Origin: Rhodospirillales bacterium
GTDB taxonomy: Bacteria; Pseudomonadota; Alphaproteobacteria; Rhodospirillales; Thalassospiraceae
DNA: 64,000 bases
Direction of reading: 5' to 3'
Assembly (NCBI GenBank): GCA_019634165.1
Contig: JAHQVT010000002.1
Span: forward strand, 62,001 to 126,000
Shown here one piece after another: positions 16,941 through 27,022 of the stretch. Each line of letters begins with the position of its first letter. Within the stretch, counting starts at the first letter, position 1. A model generated the notes under the pieces. That model saw only the letters and a list, made by a program, of their open reading frames with translations. It had not been told where the DNA came from and did no database searches. Made by a program: the position numbers and the translations under genes.

Positions 16941-17681
16941 CTAGGCAGCCTTACGACGACGCCCAAGCTCGTCACCAATTGCACGCATCTGCTCGACCAC
17001 GGTGATGTTCTCCGTCGAGGTCACTTCCAAATTCCGGTCTTCATAAACATCGCCGTCTGGGTGTTGTTCCAACCAGTCGGAAACCGTTTTGTCACGCTGG
17101 CGAATTAAGTCTTCGATTTGCGGACGATAAAGAACCATCATGCCAGATACCCACCGGTTTACTGGCCAAGACGGCTGGGCATGGTCGATCACAAAACCTT
17201 CAAGCATGGAAATAGTATCTTCAGCGTCATACCAGACCTCGCCCGTTACCCAGCGATTGGTGGTAAATAGCCGCTGGCAAAAGCCAAACTCGTCCATCGA
17301 AAATGCGACCAGATGCGATAACGCGTCATTTGGGCCTTCGGGATATTCAAACCCGTCGATCTGTTTGGGCTTACAGTTTTCAGGCATACCGCGCGGGCGC
17401 ATAAACGTATGGAAATGACCATGTTCATCCCAATCACGCCGTTCTTCCTTGGGATGTGCATGATAGTAAAATTGCGCATGAGATTGCCGGTCATATACGT
17501 CCCCTTCGGGATAATGTGACCATTCATAGAAAGAACCGGCACTCTTAATCAGTTCGCCGACAATGTTATCGCCCGTTGCTGTCAGCACACGATGGCATTC
17601 CATAACATCGCGTCCTGCCGCCAACATTCTTTCAAGTTGGCTGGTGGGGATAGAAGTCCAATCAATTGCAATTTCAGTCAT
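16941..17681 (-). CDS. Conserved hypothetical protein (DUF6969-like)
   Basis: A 246-residue soluble protein without signal peptide. It is rich in aromatic and His residues: YNVGEL-like start (DNIVGELIKSAGSFYEWSHYPEGDVYD), then SHAQFYYHAHPKEERRDWDEHGHFHTFMRPRG. The clustered histidines could bind a metal. The pattern recalls the DUF6969 family as I remember it; treat that name as tentative. It is minus strand, 188 bases downstream of the formylglycine-enzyme-like gene, so the two might share a transcript. Function unknown. Confidence 0.6.
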   Translation of the reverse strand: MTEIAIDWTSIPTSQLERMLAAGRDVMECHRVLTATGDNIVGELIKSAGSFYEWSHYPEGDVYDRQSHAQFYYHAHPKEERRDWDEHGHFHTFMRPRGMPENCKPKQIDGFEYPEGPNDALSHLVAFSMDEFGFCQRLFTTNRWVTGEVWYDAEDTISMLEGFVIDHAQPSWPVNRWVSGMMVLYRPQIEDLIRQRDKTVSDWLEQHPDGDVYEDRNLEVTSTENITVVEQMRAIGDELGRRRKAA

Positions 17682-18739: not shown

Positions 18740-19069
18740 AAGCGATTTCCATCCTGATCGGATTTGGTTCTCACGGTTTATTCAACCGGCCCAACGACTT
18801 TAACTTGCCGTCCTTATAACTATAAACATGCGTAAATTTGATCGTTCTTTCAATCAGTTTGACGATTTTATTCGCACGTACATTTGAAATTTATCCGTGA
18901 GTTCGTCCCTCGCAATGCGCGCATGACCTCTTATCCTCACACGCGGCTCTCACAGAACAGTGAAACTATGTGACGCCGCCTCTTTGATGAATTGAACCAT
19001 AGTGCCCATACCGACGGCCGCCTAAATGTGCGTCGGCTTTGACATTTCAGGACTTTCAGAGAGGCAATG
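18740..19069. promoter_or_regulatory. 330-base divergent intergenic region
   Basis: It lies between the minus-strand FGE-like gene and the plus-strand cysteine-repeat gene and holds both promoters. I see no gene, no strong hairpin and no recognised operator. An AGAGAGG site lies just before 19067-19070. Confidence 0.5.
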
Positions 19070-19387
19070 ATGACCAAGAAAACCGCAAGTTTCGCCCAAA
19101 TGGCTTTGATCCCCGCACTCGCCGTGGGAACCAGCCTTGCAATGGCAACTCCGATGGCAATGGCGGCCCCGCTTCCGGCACCAACAGCCGAAGTCGCAAG
19201 CTGTGCGCCATGCAAACCCTGCGCTGCAAATCCATGCGCGGCTAATCCATGTGCGGCGAACCCATGTGCTGCGAAAAAGATCATAAATCCGTGCAACCCC
19301 TGCAGCCCATGCGCCGCAAACCCATGTGCAGCAGCCAACCCGTGTGCGGCTAATCCATGTGCAGCCAATCCCTGTGCGGCAAAATAA
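19070..19387 (+). CDS. Exported cysteine-repeat protein (NPCAA repeats)
   Basis: A 105-residue protein not assigned to a named family. A signal peptide (to about residue 33, ...MAMAAP) is followed by a proline/alanine linker and then a tail made almost wholly of NPCAA units, with 13 cysteines between residues 45 and 102, spaced mostly every five residues. Two blocks of repeats flank KKIINPCNPCSPC. The regular soft-ligand display suggests binding of a thiophilic metal, or redox buffering, in the periplasm; this is inference. I prefer the second of two tandem ATGs because of its spacing to GAGG. It has its own terminator and stands alone. Confidence 0.85.
   Translation: MTKKTASFAQMALIPALAVGTSLAMATPMAMAAPLPAPTAEVASCAPCKPCAANPCAANPCAANPCAAKKIINPCNPCSPCAANPCAAANPCAANPCAANPCAAK
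19202..19384 (+). repeat. 15-bp-period coding repeat (NPCAA units)
   Basis: Imperfect 15-base repeats of the form AAYCCATGTGCGGCK encode NPCAA. Third positions vary (CCA/CCG/CCC, TGT/TGC), so the amino acid pattern is kept by selection rather than by very recent slippage. The opposite strand also stays open, which creates spurious frames. Confidence 0.85.
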
Positions 19388-19472: not shown

Positions 19473-19901
19473 TCAATCGCGAACGACCATCACCGAACAA
19501 TTGGCATGACGCACGACCCGAGCGGCATTCGGCCCCAAAAGATAATCTTTAAGTTCGGGGCGATGCGAACCAATCACGATCAGGTCGCAATTGGTCTTTT
19601 TCGCCATGTTCAAGATCACTTCATAGACCGTTCCCTGACCTACAATATGCTGCACCTTTATATCCGACGGAATATGTTCGGAAACAAACTCATGCAGACG
19701 TTTGTTATAGGCTTCCAGAACCTTGGCCTCGTATCCCTTTGGAAAGAACTGACCGACCATCGACATCCCAACAGTGGGAACCACTGTCAGAACATGCAAA
19801 CGAGCACCAAAGGTTTGCGCTTGTTTGATCGCGACCGGAACTGCTTTCTTCCAGGAAGATTCATGCTCAAGGTCTACTGTAACAAGAATATCCTTATACA
19901 T
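19473..19901 (-). CDS. Universal stress protein, TRAP-associated (TeaD-like)
   Basis: A 142-residue single-domain UspA-fold protein: MYKDILVTVDLEHESSWKKAVPVAIKQAQ... with the ATP-binding pattern VIGSHRPELKDYLLGPNAARVVRHANCSVMVVRD. This is close to the G-2x-G-9x-G(S/T) motif. It starts 14 bases after the fused TRAP permease on the same strand, an arrangement like Halomonas teaABC-teaD, where the Usp binds ATP and tunes ectoine uptake. A regulatory role for this TRAP system is therefore inferred. I chose the second of two near ATGs because its spacing to GGGAG is better. Confidence 0.9.
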   Translation of the reverse strand: MYKDILVTVDLEHESSWKKAVPVAIKQAQTFGARLHVLTVVPTVGMSMVGQFFPKGYEAKVLEAYNKRLHEFVSEHIPSDIKVQHIVGQGTVYEVILNMAKKTNCDLIVIGSHRPELKDYLLGPNAARVVRHANCSVMVVRD

Positions 19902-19915
19902 GGTCATTCTCCCTG

Positions 19916-22519
19916 TCAGGCCGTGCCAAGCGCATCTTCGCTGCGCTTACGACGGCGTTGCAGAACAGTGATCCCCGCCAGCAACAAGAATGCCGGAATA
20001 AAGAACACTTCTTTAGGTAGACGGTTAGCTTCGATCTTGACGGCAGTGATTTCAAAATCGAAATCAAGACCAGCCTTTTCAGCCGGACCCGCAAAGACCA
20101 GATCGTCGATATAGATGCGGCCATCTTCGTCACGAATGACGATACCCGCATTGTAAAGACGATCCTCACCTGTACCTGCTGGACCAAGTGGCAACATGAC
20201 CGATTTGGAAATCTCGTCACCCTCGATACTGATACCTTCGACATCCAGAAGAATGTTTGAATCGACCGGCATCTGCGCCGCATCTTCCACAATCGTCGTT
20301 GCCGGAAGATCTTGGTATGGTGGTTCAATCATGTCGAGCCAGAACCCAGGACGGAACAGGGTAAAGGCAATCAACAGCAATGCAGCACTTTCCCACAGCT
20401 TGGATCGGGCAAAGAAATACCCTTGTGTCGCTGCGGCAAATACAAGCATGGCTATTGTCGAAACAATGATGACGACCACCACATCCACCGGATGATCAAG
20501 ACCGATCATCAGAAGCTGGGTGTTAAACAGGAACAGGAACGGCAAAACCGCTGTGCGCATGCTATAGAAGAACGCAACAAAACCGGTCTTCATCGGATCG
20601 GCACCCGATATGGCAGCAGCAGCAAATGATGCCAATCCAACCGGTGGCGTCACATCGGCCATGATCCCGAAATAGAACACGAACAGATGAACCGCAATCA
20701 GCGGCACAATCAATCCGTTTTGCGCCCCCAACTCGACAATCACTGGCGCCATCAAGCTTGAAACCACGATATAGTTCGCCGTCGTCGGCAACCCCATACC
20801 CAGGATCAAACTGATTATCGCAGTGAAGATCAAGATCAGCATCAAATTGCCGCCCGATACGATCTCGACGAACTCGACCATCACCTGACCAATACCGGTC
20901 AATGAAACCGTACCAACAATAATCCCGGCTGCAGCGGTTGCGACACCGATACCGATCATATTACGGGCACCCGTGGCCAAGCCATCAATCATATCGGCAA
21001 AACCGTTACGAAATTCGGCCATATAATCCGGCTGCTTGCGGAAAAATGCCTTTATCGGCTTTTGGGTCAGCATGATGAAAATCATCAAAACTGTCGCCCA
21101 GAAGGCAGAAAGCCCCGGTGATTTCAATTCAATCATCAGGAACCAGACAAGCACCACAACCGGCAACAGATAATGCAATCCGGCCTTTGCGGTTTCACCC
21201 AAAGCGGGCAACTCGATCACCGGCTGATTGGGATCATCCATTTCAAGATCGGGATATTTCGCCCCGTAATACAATCCGGCGAAATAGACCAGCGCACTTT
21301 CGATGGCAACAATCCAGCCGACACCATCGCCAAAGATCTGTTTTTGCAACGTAATCGCGTAATAGATAATCCCAGACAGGATCACCAACGAGCAAACAAA
21401 GATCAACGAGCGCATCATCGTCTGTTTTAGCGTCGTGACCTCGCGTCGCGGCAGACCTTGCATATTGGCCTTCAACGCTTCGAGATGGACGATATAAATC
21501 AGCGCAATATAGGAAATCGTTGCTGGCAGGAAGGCATGCTTGATGACTTCCGGGTAAGGAATACCAACATACTCAACCATCAAGAAGGCCGCAGCCCCCA
21601 TGACCGGCGGCATGATCTGACCATTGACCGAAGATGCAACTTCAACTGCACCGGCCTTCTCGCCAGAGAACCCGACACGCTTCATCAATGGAATGGTAAA
21701 AGTCCCGGTGGTCACAACGTTTGCAATCGACGAGCCGGAAATAAGACCGGTCATGGCCGATGACAAAACGGCTGCCTTTGCCGGGCCACCACGCATGTGA
21801 CCAAGGGCAGCAAACGCCACCTTGATGAAATAGTTACCTGCCCCGGCTTTATCGAGAAGTGACCCAAACAGCACGAACAAGAAGACAAAGCTGGTTGAAA
21901 CACCAAGTGCAATCCCAAACACGCCTTCCGTCGTAATCCACTGGTGCGACATTGCCTTGGAGAAGCTCGCACCGCTCCATTGCAGAACATCTGGCACCCA
22001 CGGCGCATTACCAAAGAAGACATAAGCAAGGAATAGAAGTGCGACACACATCAAGGGTGGGCCAAGCGCACGGCGGGTTGCTTCAAGCAACATCACAAGG
22101 CCAACACCGGCTGCCGCCAAATCTGCCGTGATCGGCAGTCCGGGACGATCCGACAAGTCGCGATAGAAGATATAGATGTAGGCTGCGCAGAAAGCACCAA
22201 TCGATGCCAAAATCCAATCAACAATTGGAATGTAGCCGCGCGGCGAATTTTTAAAGGCCGGATACGCCATAAATGCGAGGAAGATGGCAAATGCCAAATG
22301 AATCGACCGGGCTTCGGTCGAGTTCAAAACCCCGAAATTAAAGATAAATGGCAACGGCGAAGCCAGCCAAAGCTGAAACAGCGACCACGAAACAGCAAGC
22401 CACAGCAACAGTTTTGCGGCAAAGCCACTCGGCTGGCGAGCACCTGTATCATTTTCAGCAATCAGGTCCTGCAAGCCCTGATCAACTGATAAATTGTCCG
22501 CTTTTTTATCGTCAGTCAT
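19916..22519 (-). CDS. Fused TRAP transporter permease (TAXI type) with DUF3394 tail
   Basis: An 867-residue membrane protein that merges the DctQ-like (4 helices) and DctM-like (about 12 helices) parts of a TRAP transporter, as is usual for TAXI systems. DctM marks include GSSIANVVTTGTFTIPLMKRVGF, LILGMGLPTTANYIV and PPVGLASFAAAAISGADPMKTG. After the last permease helices, a soluble segment (about 750-835) and a final helix match DUF3394, found in this subclass. The start at 22519 (MTDDKKADNL) follows a GGGAG site; a start at 22615 would add an unlikely leader. It works with the TAXI binding protein upstream. Confidence 0.93.
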   Translation of the reverse strand: MTDDKKADNLSVDQGLQDLIAENDTGARQPSGFAAKLLLWLAVSWSLFQLWLASPLPFIFNFGVLNSTEARSIHLAFAIFLAFMAYPAFKNSPRGYIPIVDWILASIGAFCAAYIYIFYRDLSDRPGLPITADLAAAGVGLVMLLEATRRALGPPLMCVALLFLAYVFFGNAPWVPDVLQWSGASFSKAMSHQWITTEGVFGIALGVSTSFVFLFVLFGSLLDKAGAGNYFIKVAFAALGHMRGGPAKAAVLSSAMTGLISGSSIANVVTTGTFTIPLMKRVGFSGEKAGAVEVASSVNGQIMPPVMGAAAFLMVEYVGIPYPEVIKHAFLPATISYIALIYIVHLEALKANMQGLPRREVTTLKQTMMRSLIFVCSLVILSGIIYYAITLQKQIFGDGVGWIVAIESALVYFAGLYYGAKYPDLEMDDPNQPVIELPALGETAKAGLHYLLPVVVLVWFLMIELKSPGLSAFWATVLMIFIMLTQKPIKAFFRKQPDYMAEFRNGFADMIDGLATGARNMIGIGVATAAAGIIVGTVSLTGIGQVMVEFVEIVSGGNLMLILIFTAIISLILGMGLPTTANYIVVSSLMAPVIVELGAQNGLIVPLIAVHLFVFYFGIMADVTPPVGLASFAAAAISGADPMKTGFVAFFYSMRTAVLPFLFLFNTQLLMIGLDHPVDVVVVIIVSTIAMLVFAAATQGYFFARSKLWESAALLLIAFTLFRPGFWLDMIEPPYQDLPATTIVEDAAQMPVDSNILLDVEGISIEGDEISKSVMLPLGPAGTGEDRLYNAGIVIRDEDGRIYIDDLVFAGPAEKAGLDFDFEITAVKIEANRLPKEVFFIPAFLLLAGITVLQRRRKRSEDALGTA

Positions 22520-22681
22520 CACAAACTCCCGGTCAGCACGAAAGCCTTTTGAACTGGAAACCCAGAAACAAAAAGCCTCCGTCGACACACACCCGGTCGC
22601 CCACGGAGTACTCAAACACCAATGCTATGGCGTTGTCGTTATTCAATTTTTCTAAACGTACCCGTTGGGCGCAAGAAGAAA

Positions 22682-22705
22682 ACGGAGGGCAAGACTGCCC
22701 TCCGT
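22682..22705 (-). promoter_or_regulatory. Intercistronic hairpin between TAXI protein and permease
   Basis: ACGGAGGGCA-4 bases-TGCCCTCCGT. On the minus strand it is followed by TTTTCTTCTTG, so it may act as a partial terminator that lowers permease expression relative to the binding protein. Confidence 0.65.
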
Positions 22706-22716
22706 TCGTAGCCGAA

Positions 22717-23694
22717 TTACATCAGGCCTGCTTCTTTATAGTACTTAGCAGCACCGTCATGCAGCGGAGCCGACAGACCGTCCTTGATCATTTCTTCTTT
22801 CTTCAGGACGCCAAATGCCGGATGCAGCTTTTTGAAGTCATCGAAGTTTTCGAAGACTGCTTTGACAACATTGTAAACAATGTCTGCATCGGTATTGGTC
22901 GAGGACACGAAGGTCGCGCCAACACCGAAGGTGGTGACATCATCCGGGTTGCCGCGATACATGCCGCCCGGAATGGTGGCTGCACGGTAATACGGGTTGT
23001 CAGCAACCAGTTTGTCGATCGCCGGACCAGCAACTTCTACCAGAACCGAATCACATGCAGTGGTCGCTTCCTGGATTGAGCCGGACGGATGACCAACGGT
23101 ATAGATCATTGCATCGATCTTGTTGTCACAAAGCGCCTGTGACTGTTCTGCCGGCTTCAGTTCCGAAGCAAGCGCGAAGTCATCAAGGCTCCAGCCTTTG
23201 GCAGCAAGAACGATGTCCATGGTGCCGCGCTGGCCCGAACCTGGGTTACCAATGTTCACGCGTTTGCCTTTGAGATCGTCAAAGGTTTTGATGCCTGCAT
23301 CAGCACGTGCAACCACGGTAAACGGCTCTGGATGAACAGAGAACACTGCACGCAGGTCTTTGAACGGACCGAGGTCTTCGAATTTCGAAGTACCGTTATA
23401 AGCATGGAACTGCCAATCGGACTGAGCAACGCCCATGTCCAGTTCGCCAGAACGGATGGTGTTGATGTTATAGACCGAACCGCCAGTGGATTCGACCGAG
23501 CAACGAATGCCGTGCTCTTTACGGTCTTTATTTACCAGACGGCAGATTGCACCACCGGTCGGATAATAAACACCCGTAACGCCACCGGTACCGATGGTGA
23601 TGAAACGGTTTTCCTGTGCTGATGCCTGACCAGCAAACAGCGACGCGCCCGCGATTGCAGCGACTGCACCCGCTACAGCAATAAGTTTTTTCAT
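22717..23694 (-). CDS. TAXI-family TRAP substrate-binding protein
   Basis: A 325-residue periplasmic binding protein of the TAXI (TRAP-associated extracytoplasmic immunogenic) family. The signal peptide [26 protein letters not shown] is followed by the family opening [29 protein letters not shown]. Other marks are [27 protein letters not shown] and [11 protein letters not shown]. It delivers a ligand, often glutamate- or carboxylate-like in known members, to the fused permease downstream. Here the neighbouring aminotransferase and BKACE point to an amino or keto acid. The start has a GGGAG site. A dyad related to the RpiR operator lies upstream (23766). Confidence 0.94.
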
Positions 23695-23735
23695 TAGGAA
23701 TAGCTCCCTTGTACACCCTGTTATTAGGCATTCAA

Positions 23736-23753
23736 CCGTTCAGTGAAGAACGG
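23736..23753. repeat. Short dyad upstream of the TAXI gene
   Basis: CCGTTC-AGTGAA-GAACGG, 6-bp arms, 42 bases before the start codon on the minus strand. Possible leader structure or site. Confidence 0.3.
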
Positions 23754-23765
23754 AAGAATCATATG

Positions 23766-23791
23766 GAAACATCAGACAAATCAGATGTTTC
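23766..23791. promoter_or_regulatory. GAAACAT dyad upstream of the TAXI gene (possible RpiR site)
   Basis: GAAACATC-10 bases-GATGTTTC, perfect 8-bp arms, 72 bases upstream of the TAXI start. The GAAACAT core is also the core of the larger dyad in front of the RpiR gene at 27081, suggesting a shared regulator. Confidence 0.5.
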
Positions 23792-23899
23792 GACTAAAGG
23801 ATTATAGAATCCGCGCCTGCGGATTAAAAGCCTATAACCCCAAAACCTCCTGATAGTTTATGCTTTTTAAGCAACTTTTTTGGTCTTGACCGAAATTCA

Positions 23900-24733
23900 T
23901 TACCACTGTGGTTGCATGATCTGCTTGGCCTGCTCGCCAGTCGCGATTTTGCGGTTCATTAAACGTGCACCATCACGCGCCTGGGCAATTAGCTCAGCAT
24001 TATCGTCTGCGGAGTTCCCGTCAACCCCAAGATGATTATTTTCAAATCCAATGCGACCATGACCACCCAATCCAGCCCCCGTCAAGATGCATGCATTTTC
24101 AAACGCACCAAAAGCACACAGCATCCATTCAGAGATATAGGAACTCGAACCAATGAATGGCAACAAATCAACCGGATTGGATTGCTGTCCAGCGGTATAA
24201 CGGCCCAAAACGAACAAGACCGGGAATTTTTCGCCCGGTAGCACACCAATTTCGACAAGCTGGTTAAAACGCTGCACATCTTCAGGGGCATAGACAATAA
24301 ATTGTGGTGAAATCGCAGCTTCACGCATAAATTCGAAAAACCCTTTCACCTCATTCAGATCGGCATCAATCGGCGCGATTTCGCGAATAGCAATCGACAC
24401 GGCGTCAGGGACAAGGTCCCGAACCATCGCCATTTGATCACCCGCGCTATACATCCCCACCGCTTCGGTTGTCACTTGCAACACCATATCGGGCCCAACC
24501 GCAGCACGCACTTCACGCAGCATTTCCCGGTAACGCCCGGCATCAAGGCTGTGTCGTTGTTCATCATCGCGAACATGAAGATGCATCATGCCTGCACCGG
24601 CCTGTTTACATTTAAGCGCGGTCTTTGCGACCTCCACGGGGGTAATCGGAATATTGGGCAAGTCTGCCTTGGTCTTGCGCGCACCGTTCGGGGCCGATGC
24701 GATCAGAAACGGGGTATCGGTGTATCCCATCAT
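23900..24733 (-). CDS. Beta-keto acid cleavage enzyme (BKACE, DUF849 family)
   Basis: A 277-residue BKACE/Kce-family TIM barrel. It condenses a beta-keto acid with acetyl-CoA and cleaves it to acetoacetate and a new acyl-CoA. The zinc ligands are visible: HLHVRD (His51, His53) and the C-terminal GGHGRIGFENN (Glu231); the N-terminal PNGA segment and TPVEVAKTALKCKQAGAGMMHLHVRD are typical. The substrate side chain cannot be read from sequence. Its start overlaps the stop of the aminotransferase (ATGA), so the two are translationally coupled. That fits a transaminase making a beta-keto acid for this enzyme. Confidence 0.93.
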   Translation of the reverse strand: MMGYTDTPFLIASAPNGARKTKADLPNIPITPVEVAKTALKCKQAGAGMMHLHVRDDEQRHSLDAGRYREMLREVRAAVGPDMVLQVTTEAVGMYSAGDQMAMVRDLVPDAVSIAIREIAPIDADLNEVKGFFEFMREAAISPQFIVYAPEDVQRFNQLVEIGVLPGEKFPVLFVLGRYTAGQQSNPVDLLPFIGSSSYISEWMLCAFGAFENACILTGAGLGGHGRIGFENNHLGVDGNSADDNAELIAQARDGARLMNRKIATGEQAKQIMQPQW

Positions 24734-26106
24734 GACAATCCTTCCGCCTTAAAGACGTCATCCAACGCCGCGGCAAACAGATCAACGATTTTGCCTATAT
24801 CGCTCTCGGTCACGATGAAGGCAGGCGCAAACAGCACATGATCGCCGCGCACGCCATCAATCGTCCCGCCCATCGGATAGGCCATCAAGCCACGCGCAAA
24901 GGCCGCCTTCTTGATTTTGGCATTGATCTTAAGGGCCGGGTCAAACGGGTCTTTGGTTTCACGGTCTACGACCAGTTCCACCCCCCGAAACAGCCCACGT
25001 CCGCGAATATCACCAACAAACGGATGCTGACCCAGTTTGGCCTGTAAACCACCCACAAGGTTTTCGCCCTGTTTGACCACATTGGCCAAAAGGTTGCGTT
25101 CTTTAATCACGCGTTGCGTTGCAAGGGCCGCAGCACAAGCAGTTGCATGGCCCTGATAAGTATGCCCATGTTGAAAGAACCCTGATCCGTTGGCGATGGC
25201 ATCATTGATTTTCTTGGACACCAAAACCGCACCAATCGGCTGATACCCTGCTCCCAACCCCTTGGCGATGGTTTGCAAATCGCCTGAAATGCCTTCCTGT
25301 TCAATCGCGTGAAGCGTGCCGGTTCGACCCATACCGCACATGACTTCATCAAGGATCAGCAACACGCCATATTGATCACAAATCTCGCGCACGCGTTTGA
25401 AATACCCCGGCACAGGTGCCAGCGCCCCGGACGTCGCCCCGACAACCGGTTCGGCTACGAATGCCGCAACACTATCGGCACCAAGTTCAAGAATTGCAGT
25501 TTCGAGTTCATTGGCAACGCGCAGCCCATATGCTTCGGCCGTCTCGTTGGCACGCTGGTCACGATATTGATAAACCGGGGCGATATGGCTTGCCGTGATC
25601 AAAAGCGGTTCGAACTGTTTACGCCGCCACATATTGCCACCGACAGACAGCGCACCAAGCGTATTGCCATGATAGGACTGACGGCGCGCAATGACGTATT
25701 TTCGATCTGGCTGACCAATTTCAAGGAAATACTGACGCGCCATCTTAAGCGCGGCTTCGGTTGCCTCGGACCCACCAGATACAAAATAGACCTTATCAAT
25801 TCCTTCTGGTGCATTTGCCACCAGTTCATCTGCCAGTTCTTCCATCGCATCAGATGAAAAGAACCCGGAATGGGCATAGGCAATCTGATCAATCTGGGCA
25901 TGCATGGCCGCACGGACTTCCGGGTCGGAATGGCCAAGGCAGGACACAGCCGCACCGCCGCAGGCATCAAGATAAGCTTTGCCATTCTGATCGAAAATAT
26001 AGATGCCCTCGCCCTTTACCGCACGGGGCGGTATTGCAACACTTGTTCGGTGCAGAACATGGGTGGAGGCATATGGGGCAGAAGCAGCATTTGACACAGT
26101 TGTCAT
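24730..26106 (-). CDS. Class III (omega) aminotransferase, PLP-dependent
   Basis: A 458-residue fold-type I, subgroup III aminotransferase. The PLP lysine is Lys282 in IAKGLGAGYQPIGAVL. Asp253 in LLILDEVMCGMGRTG contacts the PLP nitrogen, and SGGSEATEAALKMARQY binds the phosphate. Family members act on omega- or beta-amino groups (beta-alanine, taurine, ornithine, adenosylmethionine-like donors). Coupling by overlap to a beta-keto acid cleavage enzyme suggests a beta-amino acid substrate; this is inference. It starts 40 bases after the RpiR gene stop, so probably one operon. Confidence 0.92.
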   Translation of the reverse strand: MTTVSNAASAPYASTHVLHRTSVAIPPRAVKGEGIYIFDQNGKAYLDACGGAAVSCLGHSDPEVRAAMHAQIDQIAYAHSGFFSSDAMEELADELVANAPEGIDKVYFVSGGSEATEAALKMARQYFLEIGQPDRKYVIARRQSYHGNTLGALSVGGNMWRRKQFEPLLITASHIAPVYQYRDQRANETAEAYGLRVANELETAILELGADSVAAFVAEPVVGATSGALAPVPGYFKRVREICDQYGVLLILDEVMCGMGRTGTLHAIEQEGISGDLQTIAKGLGAGYQPIGAVLVSKKINDAIANGSGFFQHGHTYQGHATACAAALATQRVIKERNLLANVVKQGENLVGGLQAKLGQHPFVGDIRGRGLFRGVELVVDRETKDPFDPALKINAKIKKAAFARGLMAYPMGGTIDGVRGDHVLFAPAFIVTESDIGKIVDLFAAALDDVFKAEGLS

Positions 26107-26146
26107 GATCGGGGGGGTCCGTGTGGGGCGTTAAGGTCAGGGTTCA

Positions 26147-27022
26147 CTAATCTTCGAGATAGGTATCGAAGGCCGCAAGTTGTTCTTCAGCAACAGCAAT
26201 CCGTTGCAGGGCTTTTTGACCACCACGCGCAACCAGCAGGGCAACCAGCGCCTGCATGACCGATAACGCAGCAGTAAAACTTTGGAAAAATGATTGGGAA
26301 TGGTCGCGCACAACCAGTTTGGTCATCGCATCAAGCGCAATCGGCGATACGTCTGAATCACTTATTGCAATGACCGGGCAGTGTTGATCGCGCGCAAACC
26401 GTACGGCTTGTACCGTGTCGCGGATATAGGGTTTTGCGCCAACCGCAATGAGCAAATCACGCCGTGTAATCCCGCGCAATTCATCACCAAAAGCACCGGA
26501 ATGACCATCGACCAAAATGCCATTGTCACGAAACAGACGATAAGCATATGCAAACTGATAGGCCGCCGGATAAGCCGCCCCACAGCCGACGATAAAAACG
26601 TGGCGCGCATTCTCAATCGCGCCACAGGCTTCAATCATCCGCGATGAAAGTTCCGGGCTAAAAGCCGCGCTGATATTGTCAATTTCAGTCCGGGCAATGC
26701 TTTCAAGCAGATGTTCATCGCGATTGGCGTCATTTTCAACGCTTTGTGTTTCACGCGCACGCTGGGCATAGCTTGCGGGCTGATCAAGCAAACGGCTTTG
26801 ATAATGGTCGCGAAAATCTTGCCATGTCTCCACACCAATCGCCCCCATCAATCGGGTAATCGTGCTTGGCGGAACATCCGCCGCCCCCGCAAGGGCCCGC
26901 ATTGATCGCAGGGCAACCTCGTTTGGGTGGTCAAGGATATAACGCGCGGCTTTCTGCATCTGCGGACTAAGCTTGGCATAGTCCGAAATCAGTTTTTCAC
27001 GCAAATCGGAATACAAACCCAT
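26147..27022 (-). CDS. MurR/RpiR-family transcriptional regulator
   Basis: A 291-residue regulator with an N-terminal RpiR helix-turn-helix (about residues 1-78: LSPQMQKAARYILDHPNEVALRSMRALAGAADVPPSTITRLMGAIGVETWQDFRDHYQ) and a C-terminal SIS sugar/phosphosugar-binding-type domain (about 125-255, VFIVGCGAAYPAAYQFAY). It leads the aminotransferase-BKACE-TAXI block, with a perfect long dyad 59 bases upstream, so local and self regulation is likely. The ATG at 27022 is preferred over the TTG just before it. The ligand is unknown; SIS domains here need not bind sugars. Confidence 0.92.
   Translation of the reverse strand: MGLYSDLREKLISDYAKLSPQMQKAARYILDHPNEVALRSMRALAGAADVPPSTITRLMGAIGVETWQDFRDHYQSRLLDQPASYAQRARETQSVENDANRDEHLLESIARTEIDNISAAFSPELSSRMIEACGAIENARHVFIVGCGAAYPAAYQFAYAYRLFRDNGILVDGHSGAFGDELRGITRRDLLIAVGAKPYIRDTVQAVRFARDQHCPVIAISDSDVSPIALDAMTKLVVRDHSQSFFQSFTAALSVMQALVALLVARGGQKALQRIAVAEEQLAAFDTYLED

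Follow-up and report, generated by a model that had tools for sequence, protein, structure and literature searches.

Which compound does a bacterium take up and break down with a TRAP transporter, an aminotransferase and an enzyme of the BKACE fold, when the genes for all three are kept together? This question is raised by a six-gene cluster in a 64,000-nucleotide stretch of contig JAHQVT010000002.1 (the window, which is part of a Thalassospira genome). All six genes lie on the minus strand and encode an RpiR regulator, a class III aminotransferase (AT), a DUF849/BKACE protein, a TAXI solute-binding protein, a fused TRAP permease and a universal stress protein (Usp). An original prediction, made from the letters of the window, had named these six genes in this order and assigned them to the uptake and breakdown of a beta-amino acid. 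The genes were found where it had placed them, and the ATGA overlap of 4 nt between AT and BKACE was also seen. Our interpretation, held tentatively and with a little less than even confidence, is a module that takes up a glutamate-type amino acid, transaminates it and handles a beta-keto acid in a non-canonical way.

The gene neighbourhood is conserved

The closest named matches of the DUF849 protein were from Thalassospira, at 73-84% identity. The DUF849/BKACE gene was present in 28/28 other Thalassospira genomes searched, and AT and TAXI adjoined it in all 28. The full six-gene order was intact in 18/18 named Thalassospira loci, with RpiR next to AT in each, although the RpiR match was partial in two. 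Outside the genus, 80 of the 88 non-Thalassospira matches of the DUF849 subfamily were fetched, leaving out 8, and gene maps of the fetched loci were drawn with a codon-scored gene caller. AT (at least 50% identity) together with TAXI/TRAP was seen in 42/80 neighbourhoods, AT only in 13, TAXI/TRAP only in 4 and neither in 21. When genes were scored by match score, AT was found in 58/80 neighbourhoods, standing before DUF849 on the same strand in 46, divergent from it in 6 and after it in 6. By the same scoring, AT, DUF849 and TAXI occurred together in 43/80, of which 26 had the layout of the window and 17 had five other layouts; this is a strict recount, and a looser tally gave 26 strings in 58 loci, some split only by missing genes or contig ends. 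The original prediction had expected the same genes to stand together in other genomes, and these counts bear it out in several layouts. Usp was located 3' of TRAP in many fetched loci. AT-DUF849-TAXI was also found on a Vibrio plasmid, a Paracoccus plasmid had the order TAXI-TRAP-Usp-AT-DUF849, and in one locus (L163) an amino-acid-type ABC transporter (SBP_bac_3 plus permease domains) stood beside AT and DUF849 in the place of TAXI.

Co-occurrence was further measured in a class-wide draw of 385 genomes, with "near" defined as within 8 kb. DUF849-subfamily matches were near an AT match in 40/56 cases and near a TAXI match in 28/56, and AT matches were near a TAXI match in 41/97. Because the genomes are related, the Fisher values on co-occurrence are not independent tests. 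From the AT matches, all 16 AT-TAXI loci without DUF849 and 24 of the 41 AT-alone loci were fetched, together with 20 of the 56 TAXI matches without a near AT. The genes might be neighbours without a shared function, in which case a common transporter set would merely happen to adjoin an AT-DUF849 pair; the finding that 56/100 TAXI matches lacked an AT match within 8 kb fits this explanation. However, the association persists through several rearrangements and inversions across families, and the co-occurrence in the 385 genomes is strong, which makes this explanation very improbable. A chance neighbourhood was likewise rejected as unlikely, since the partners stay together within the genus and recur in several layouts outside it. 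The gene linkage is genuine, and the genomes searched show a real and widespread unit. No published description of an AT-DUF849-TAXI cluster was found among the matches listed from one open-access library.

Parts of the unit were also seen on two other plasmids. On a Sinorhizobium meliloti plasmid (L264), AT-RpiR was divergent from DUF849 and near hydroxyproline genes, with no TAXI in the stretch; in S. meliloti NZ_CP019586.1, a TAXI match was about 19 kb from the DUF849 match. The E. coli plasmid pBH100alpha (L268) carried an RpiR-AT pair of the same group near insertion sequences, resistance genes and gltS.

A DUF849 subfamily with a predicted altered active site

The AlphaFold model of the DUF849 protein (pLDDT 95.8), which served for fold only, had Kce (2y7f, the best) and DUF849 structures as its top Foldseek matches, with a TMq of 0.84 to 2y7f_B. 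The Zn ligands, Arg227 and Tyr148 are common to Kce and the window protein; within the subfamily, H51, H53 and E231 as Zn ligands and Arg227 were present in 80/80 members and Tyr148 in 76/80. In contrast, the alignment to Kce showed replacement of the catalytic Glu143 by Ile146, Asp231 by Asn232, Ser82 by Thr88 and Glu14 by Arg19. A profile alignment to BKACE15 itself placed Ile146 at Glu171, the equivalent of Kce E143. Position 146 was Ile in 79/80 members and Leu in 1/80, Asn232 was found in 80/80 where relatives have the conserved Asp after the Zn-ligand Glu, and Gln144 was found in 79/80 where relatives have Glu. Moreover, the subfamily differs from Kce and BKACE15 in having new invariant residues, Glu90 (80/80) and Glu118 (80/80), and Arg19 is also specific to it (77/80). 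In 29 DUF849 proteins outside the subfamily, the catalytic Glu was kept in 28/29 and the Asp in 29/29, and Arg at position 14 was seen in 0/29; the lone exception at the Glu site (L323, Met) is poorly aligned there. This family control comprised 31 loci out of 71 matches, skewed to the best match per genome, and 2/31 fell in the subfamily. Two other DUF849 genes of the same genome also have the usual Glu and Asp. By its residues, the DUF849 protein is assigned to a divergent subfamily with an altered active site.

A second class III AT of the same genome (L001, C6 ~800446-802643) lies beside a DUF849 gene with the usual catalytic residues, whose product is 25% identical to the window DUF849.

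The original prediction stated that the beta-keto acid made by the AT is exactly what a BKACE condenses with acetyl-CoA. In such a canonical reaction, the beta-keto acid from an unspecified beta-amino acid would be turned with acetyl-CoA into acetoacetate and an acyl-CoA. The assignment to PF05853, the kept Zn ligands, Arg227 and Tyr148, and the recurrence of AT-DUF849 pairing, including the second pair with usual residues, are in line with it. An Arg was taken as the BKACE base in earlier studies, as related in PMC11961710, and the role of the base could have passed to one of the invariant residues Glu90 and Glu118. On the other hand, the window protein has neither the catalytic Glu nor the conserved Asp of characterised BKACEs, and both replacements run through the subfamily, with the usual residues kept outside it. 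For BKACE15, Glu171 was argued to be the catalytic base, and Glu171Leu was reported inactive (PMC11961710). Ordinary acetyl-CoA cleavage therefore cannot be assumed for this protein, and the canonical reaction appears distinctly unlikely. These residues suggest that either a carboxylate was relocated (to Glu90 or Glu118) or the chemistry was changed.

Arg19 may bear on the substrate. Kce Glu14 is reported to contact the substrate amine (PMC10470551), and the Arg at this position hints at an acidic substrate end. Decarboxylation of beta-ketoglutarate was reported for DUF849 group G6 (PMC4922564), an activity that would supply exactly the step needed for 3-oxoglutarate. The database name of the subfamily is "3-keto-5-aminohexanoate cleavage protein", as given in all 11 annotated rows of 25 plasmid records that were listed with the window protein as query. 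Despite that name, the members examined are singled out as a subfamily in which the catalytic Glu and Asp are replaced.

The transporter resembles VcGluPQM

The closest solved relatives of the TAXI protein include 8s4j, the L-glutamate-bound VcGluP, and over the aligned columns the two proteins are 66% identical. VcGluP belongs to VcGluPQM (VC0430/VC0429), an L-glutamate TAXI-TRAP system of Vibrio cholerae, and the window system has the same pocket core, a fused permease with a DUF3394 claw domain and a Usp downstream. All five VcGluP pocket residues, Y45, S75, Q93, H123 and E125, are present in the window TAXI. The two proteins differ at position 157 (Gln in the window, Asp in VcGluP) and at position 201 (Thr in the window, Met in VcGluP), and the two systems differ in their surroundings: the window genes are linked to RpiR-AT-DUF849, and in V. 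cholerae argR and mdh lie upstream of VC0430. In 52 TAXI proteins of the loci, Y45 was kept in 51, S75 in 52, Q93 in 50 and E125 in 52, and each of the five residues, H123 included, was kept in 49-52 of the 52. Judged by this pocket, the window TAXI is most readily seen as a glutamate-type binding protein, not an orphan. The frequent linkage of the DUF849 subfamily to such a transporter narrows the search for the substrate to a handful of compounds.

The same five residues were then compared between groups. They were found in 40/40 loci with AT and DUF849, in 16/16 with AT only and in 20/20 with no close AT, although the stretch fetched for one of the last group (L287) includes a 36% AT. A pocket signature specific to AT-linked TAXI was not found in these 40 + 16 + 20 proteins. 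The TAXI tree intermixed the three groups (24 changes); it contains two very long branches, and the bootstrap was not settled. The original prediction regarded TAXI substrates as unknown and the locus as one that could define those of both transporter and BKACE. This view is not supported: close solved relatives exist, including the L-glutamate-binding VcGluP (PMC11574862), linked and unlinked TAXI proteins share one pocket core, and many TAXI matches lie without a near AT.

A further system, similar by its description, is rsp_1412/1413 of Cereibacter sphaeroides, a sodium-dependent L-glutamate TAXI-TRAP reported with TAXI, TRAP and three close downstream genes (PMC12632250). By analogy with the Paracoccus plasmid, the three probably encode Usp, AT and DUF849. 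The main text of that paper mentions neither an aminotransferase, a universal stress protein nor 3-keto-5-aminohexanoate.

Proposed function and substrate

In the proposed module, TAXI would capture a glutamate-type amino acid, which the DUF3394-bearing TRAP permease would bring in. The class III AT would strip the amino group, and the resulting beta-keto acid would be processed by the DUF849 enzyme, a TIM-barrel that binds Zn and whose catalytic acids are rearranged. RpiR would regulate the genes and Usp would modulate the system. We infer both the order of these reactions and the beta-keto acid. A beta-amino acid is the presumed substrate of the AT, whose family name, PRK07483, carries no tested substrate.

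Five loci bear on the beta-keto acid (L186, L187, L188, L196 and L197). A carnitine-dehydrogenase-like gene, of the 3-hydroxy-acid type, lies beside the same DUF849 subfamily in each; the call was made on the L188 member only, at 271 bits and thus below the curated cut-off of 414, and the rest were assigned by clustering. None of the five has an AT at 50% identity or above, and L196 and L197 each contain one at 35-36%. Either an AT or a carnitine-dehydrogenase-like gene beside DUF849 points to a beta-keto acid. The beta-amino acid scheme of the original prediction is thus upheld in part: the unit is conserved, an AT feeding DUF849 with a beta-keto acid is sensible and finds some support in these five loci, but the canonical BKACE chemistry was not supported. 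The substrate and the pathway are still to be read as presumptive.

The system may instead transport ordinary L-glutamate. The AT would then be a glutamate-linked transaminase, on the donor or the product side, DUF849 would act on a different compound with other chemistry, such as an aldolase or hydrolase step, and no beta-amino acid would be involved. VcGluP is reported to bind L-glutamate at 65 nM and to give no thermal shift when aspartate, lysine, 2-oxoglutarate or adipate is added at 1 mM (PMC11574862), and deletion of the Cereibacter sphaeroides TAXI-TRAP is reported to abolish growth on L-glutamate that depends on sodium (PMC12632250). TAXI proteins from loci with and without AT do not differ in their pocket core, AT-TAXI pairs exist without DUF849, and some enzymes of the DUF849 fold, such as cis-epoxysuccinate hydrolase and BsfD, are not BKACEs. 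All of these favour L-glutamate. However, L-glutamate would hardly seem to need a class III AT of its own, and the carnitine-dehydrogenase-like enzyme beside the DUF849 subfamily in five loci points to a beta-keto acid. We regard the L-glutamate explanation as somewhat unlikely.

Several results weigh against glutamate-type uptake coupled to beta-keto acid handling. The pocket core shared by 20/20 unlinked TAXI proteins bears no mark of a special ligand, beta-glutamate is unmentioned in the main text of the VcGluP paper (PMC11574862), and the phenotype of the Cereibacter deletion concerns L-glutamate (PMC12632250). In 21/80 neighbourhoods, neither an AT at the 50% identity level nor TAXI/TRAP accompanied DUF849. 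Conversely, 16/41 AT-TAXI pairs had no nearby DUF849-subfamily match, and 15 of these 16 genomes had no such match at all at the threshold used; no obvious DUF849 substitute was seen on the gene maps of AT-TAXI loci, where the other genes were not scanned. An Arg was earlier taken as the BKACE base and the aligned Arg227 is kept in 80/80, so the chemistry may be unchanged in spite of the missing Glu. Finally, DUF849 group G7 was reported inactive on every substrate tested in PMC4922564, and the window subfamily could belong to it.

For the proposed module, the leading candidate substrate is beta-glutamate (3-aminopentanedioate), an isomer of glutamate whose transamination would give the beta-keto acid 3-oxoglutarate. 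With a transporter of the glutamate type and enzymes for a beta-keto acid, beta-glutamate is one compound satisfying both. It is the best fit to transporter and enzymes, but as the actual substrate we hold it doubtful. The 3-oxoglutarate would be converted to acetoacetate by decarboxylation or be cleaved by a variant Claisen reaction, and the route could be completed by an acetoacetyl-CoA synthetase or CoA transferase from another part of the genome; an acetoacetyl-CoA synthetase (962.9 bits, cut-off 520.9) and two CoA-transferase-domain genes were found in the same genome. 3-Oxoglutarate loses CO2 spontaneously, which would explain the AT-TAXI genomes without DUF849 and also makes the beta-glutamate idea harder to refute.

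Beta-glutamate is an osmolyte of methanogens (PMC1224877), and in Nitrosopumilus maritimus it was reported as the most abundant identified metabolite, at 730 mM; it was also measured in the sea (PMC8269262). A more specific proposal is a dedicated bacterial route for this major osmolyte of marine archaea. It would consist of import by a GluP-type TAXI-TRAP, conversion to 3-oxoglutarate by a PRK07483 AT, and conversion to acetoacetate by DUF849 through decarboxylation or variant cleavage, with the carboxylate moved from strand 5 (Kce Glu143) to one of the positions that follow strands 3 and 4 (Glu90 or Glu118). Taken as a whole, this route is rather unlikely. If beta-glutamate is the substrate, the module would be a means by which bacteria remove a compound that ammonia-oxidising archaea produce in abundance, and its genes could be used for tracking that compound in the ocean.

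Gene organization and putative regulatory elements

The features of the locus are collected in the table.

Table. Features of the six-gene cluster, with positions counted from the first letter of the window.
Feature	Position	Strand	Basis
RpiR/MurR-type regulator	26147..27022	-	Pfam HTH_6 + SIS, both over cut-off
Class III aminotransferase, PRK07483 group	24730..26106	-	NCBIfam NF005685, 756.5 bits, cut-off 485
DUF849 (BKACE-fold) enzyme, divergent subfamily	23900..24733	-	PF05853, 212.5 bits, cut-off 24.8
Leader, 205 nt, between DUF849 and TAXI	23695..23899	-	Length 204-217 nt in 19/19 Thalassospira sequences
TAXI solute-binding protein, glutamate (VcGluP) type	22717..23694	-	TIGR02122, 389 bits; 8s4j, E=1.2e-137
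Predicted 12-pair GC-rich hairpin + T-rich tail, directly 3' of TAXI	22680..22707	-	Consensus scan
Fused TRAP permease (TRAP_fused) + C-terminal DUF3394 'claw' domain	~19916..22519	-	TIGR02123, 709 bits; DUF3394, 233 bits
Universal stress protein (Usp)	19473..19907	-	Pfam Usp, 108 bits

The TRAP start at 22519 is an in-frame ATG, and the family scans were run from 22525. By coordinates, the gaps are 40 nt between RpiR and AT, 205 nt between BKACE and TAXI, about 197 nt between TAXI and TRAP, and 8 nt between TRAP and Usp. An Rfam search with the leader gave no match; the leader might hold a separate promoter for the transporter. The hairpin was predicted in 19/19 Thalassospira TAXI-TRAP gaps, with compensatory stem changes, although the overall number of sites in the consensus scan was not above that in shuffled sequence. 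The original prediction did not mention this hairpin. Its conservation suggests that TAXI and TRAP may be separated by an intrinsic terminator or an attenuator, and expression of TRAP may be lowered relative to the binding protein. Together with the leader, the conserved hairpin may mean that RpiR-AT-DUF849 and TAXI-TRAP-Usp are separately tuned.

Other neighbouring genes

MlaE/F/D-type lipid transporter genes, a phosphoribosyltransferase and a glycine-cleavage P protein were judged incidental neighbours. A protein with FAD and GcvT domains was seen in 6/120 neighbourhoods (L167, L169, L170, L180, L181 and L258; the family scan was made on L169 only). It adjoins the module in L169, L170, L180 and L181, and by the scan of L169 it is sarcosine or dimethylglycine dehydrogenase-like. 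A BhcC-like PLP enzyme was located directly upstream of the DUF849 subfamily in L155, L158 and L159, with no AT near; this call comes from L155 only, at 456 bits, below the cut-off of 690.

Just past Usp in the window, on the opposite strand, an open reading frame of 106 aa (19067-19387, +) contains repeated Cys-Ala-Ala-Asn-Pro units. Further downstream lies a DUF6969 gene (16941-17681, -), which recurs in 11/120 fetched neighbourhoods, at times directly after Usp or TAXI, and is a possible further member of the module.

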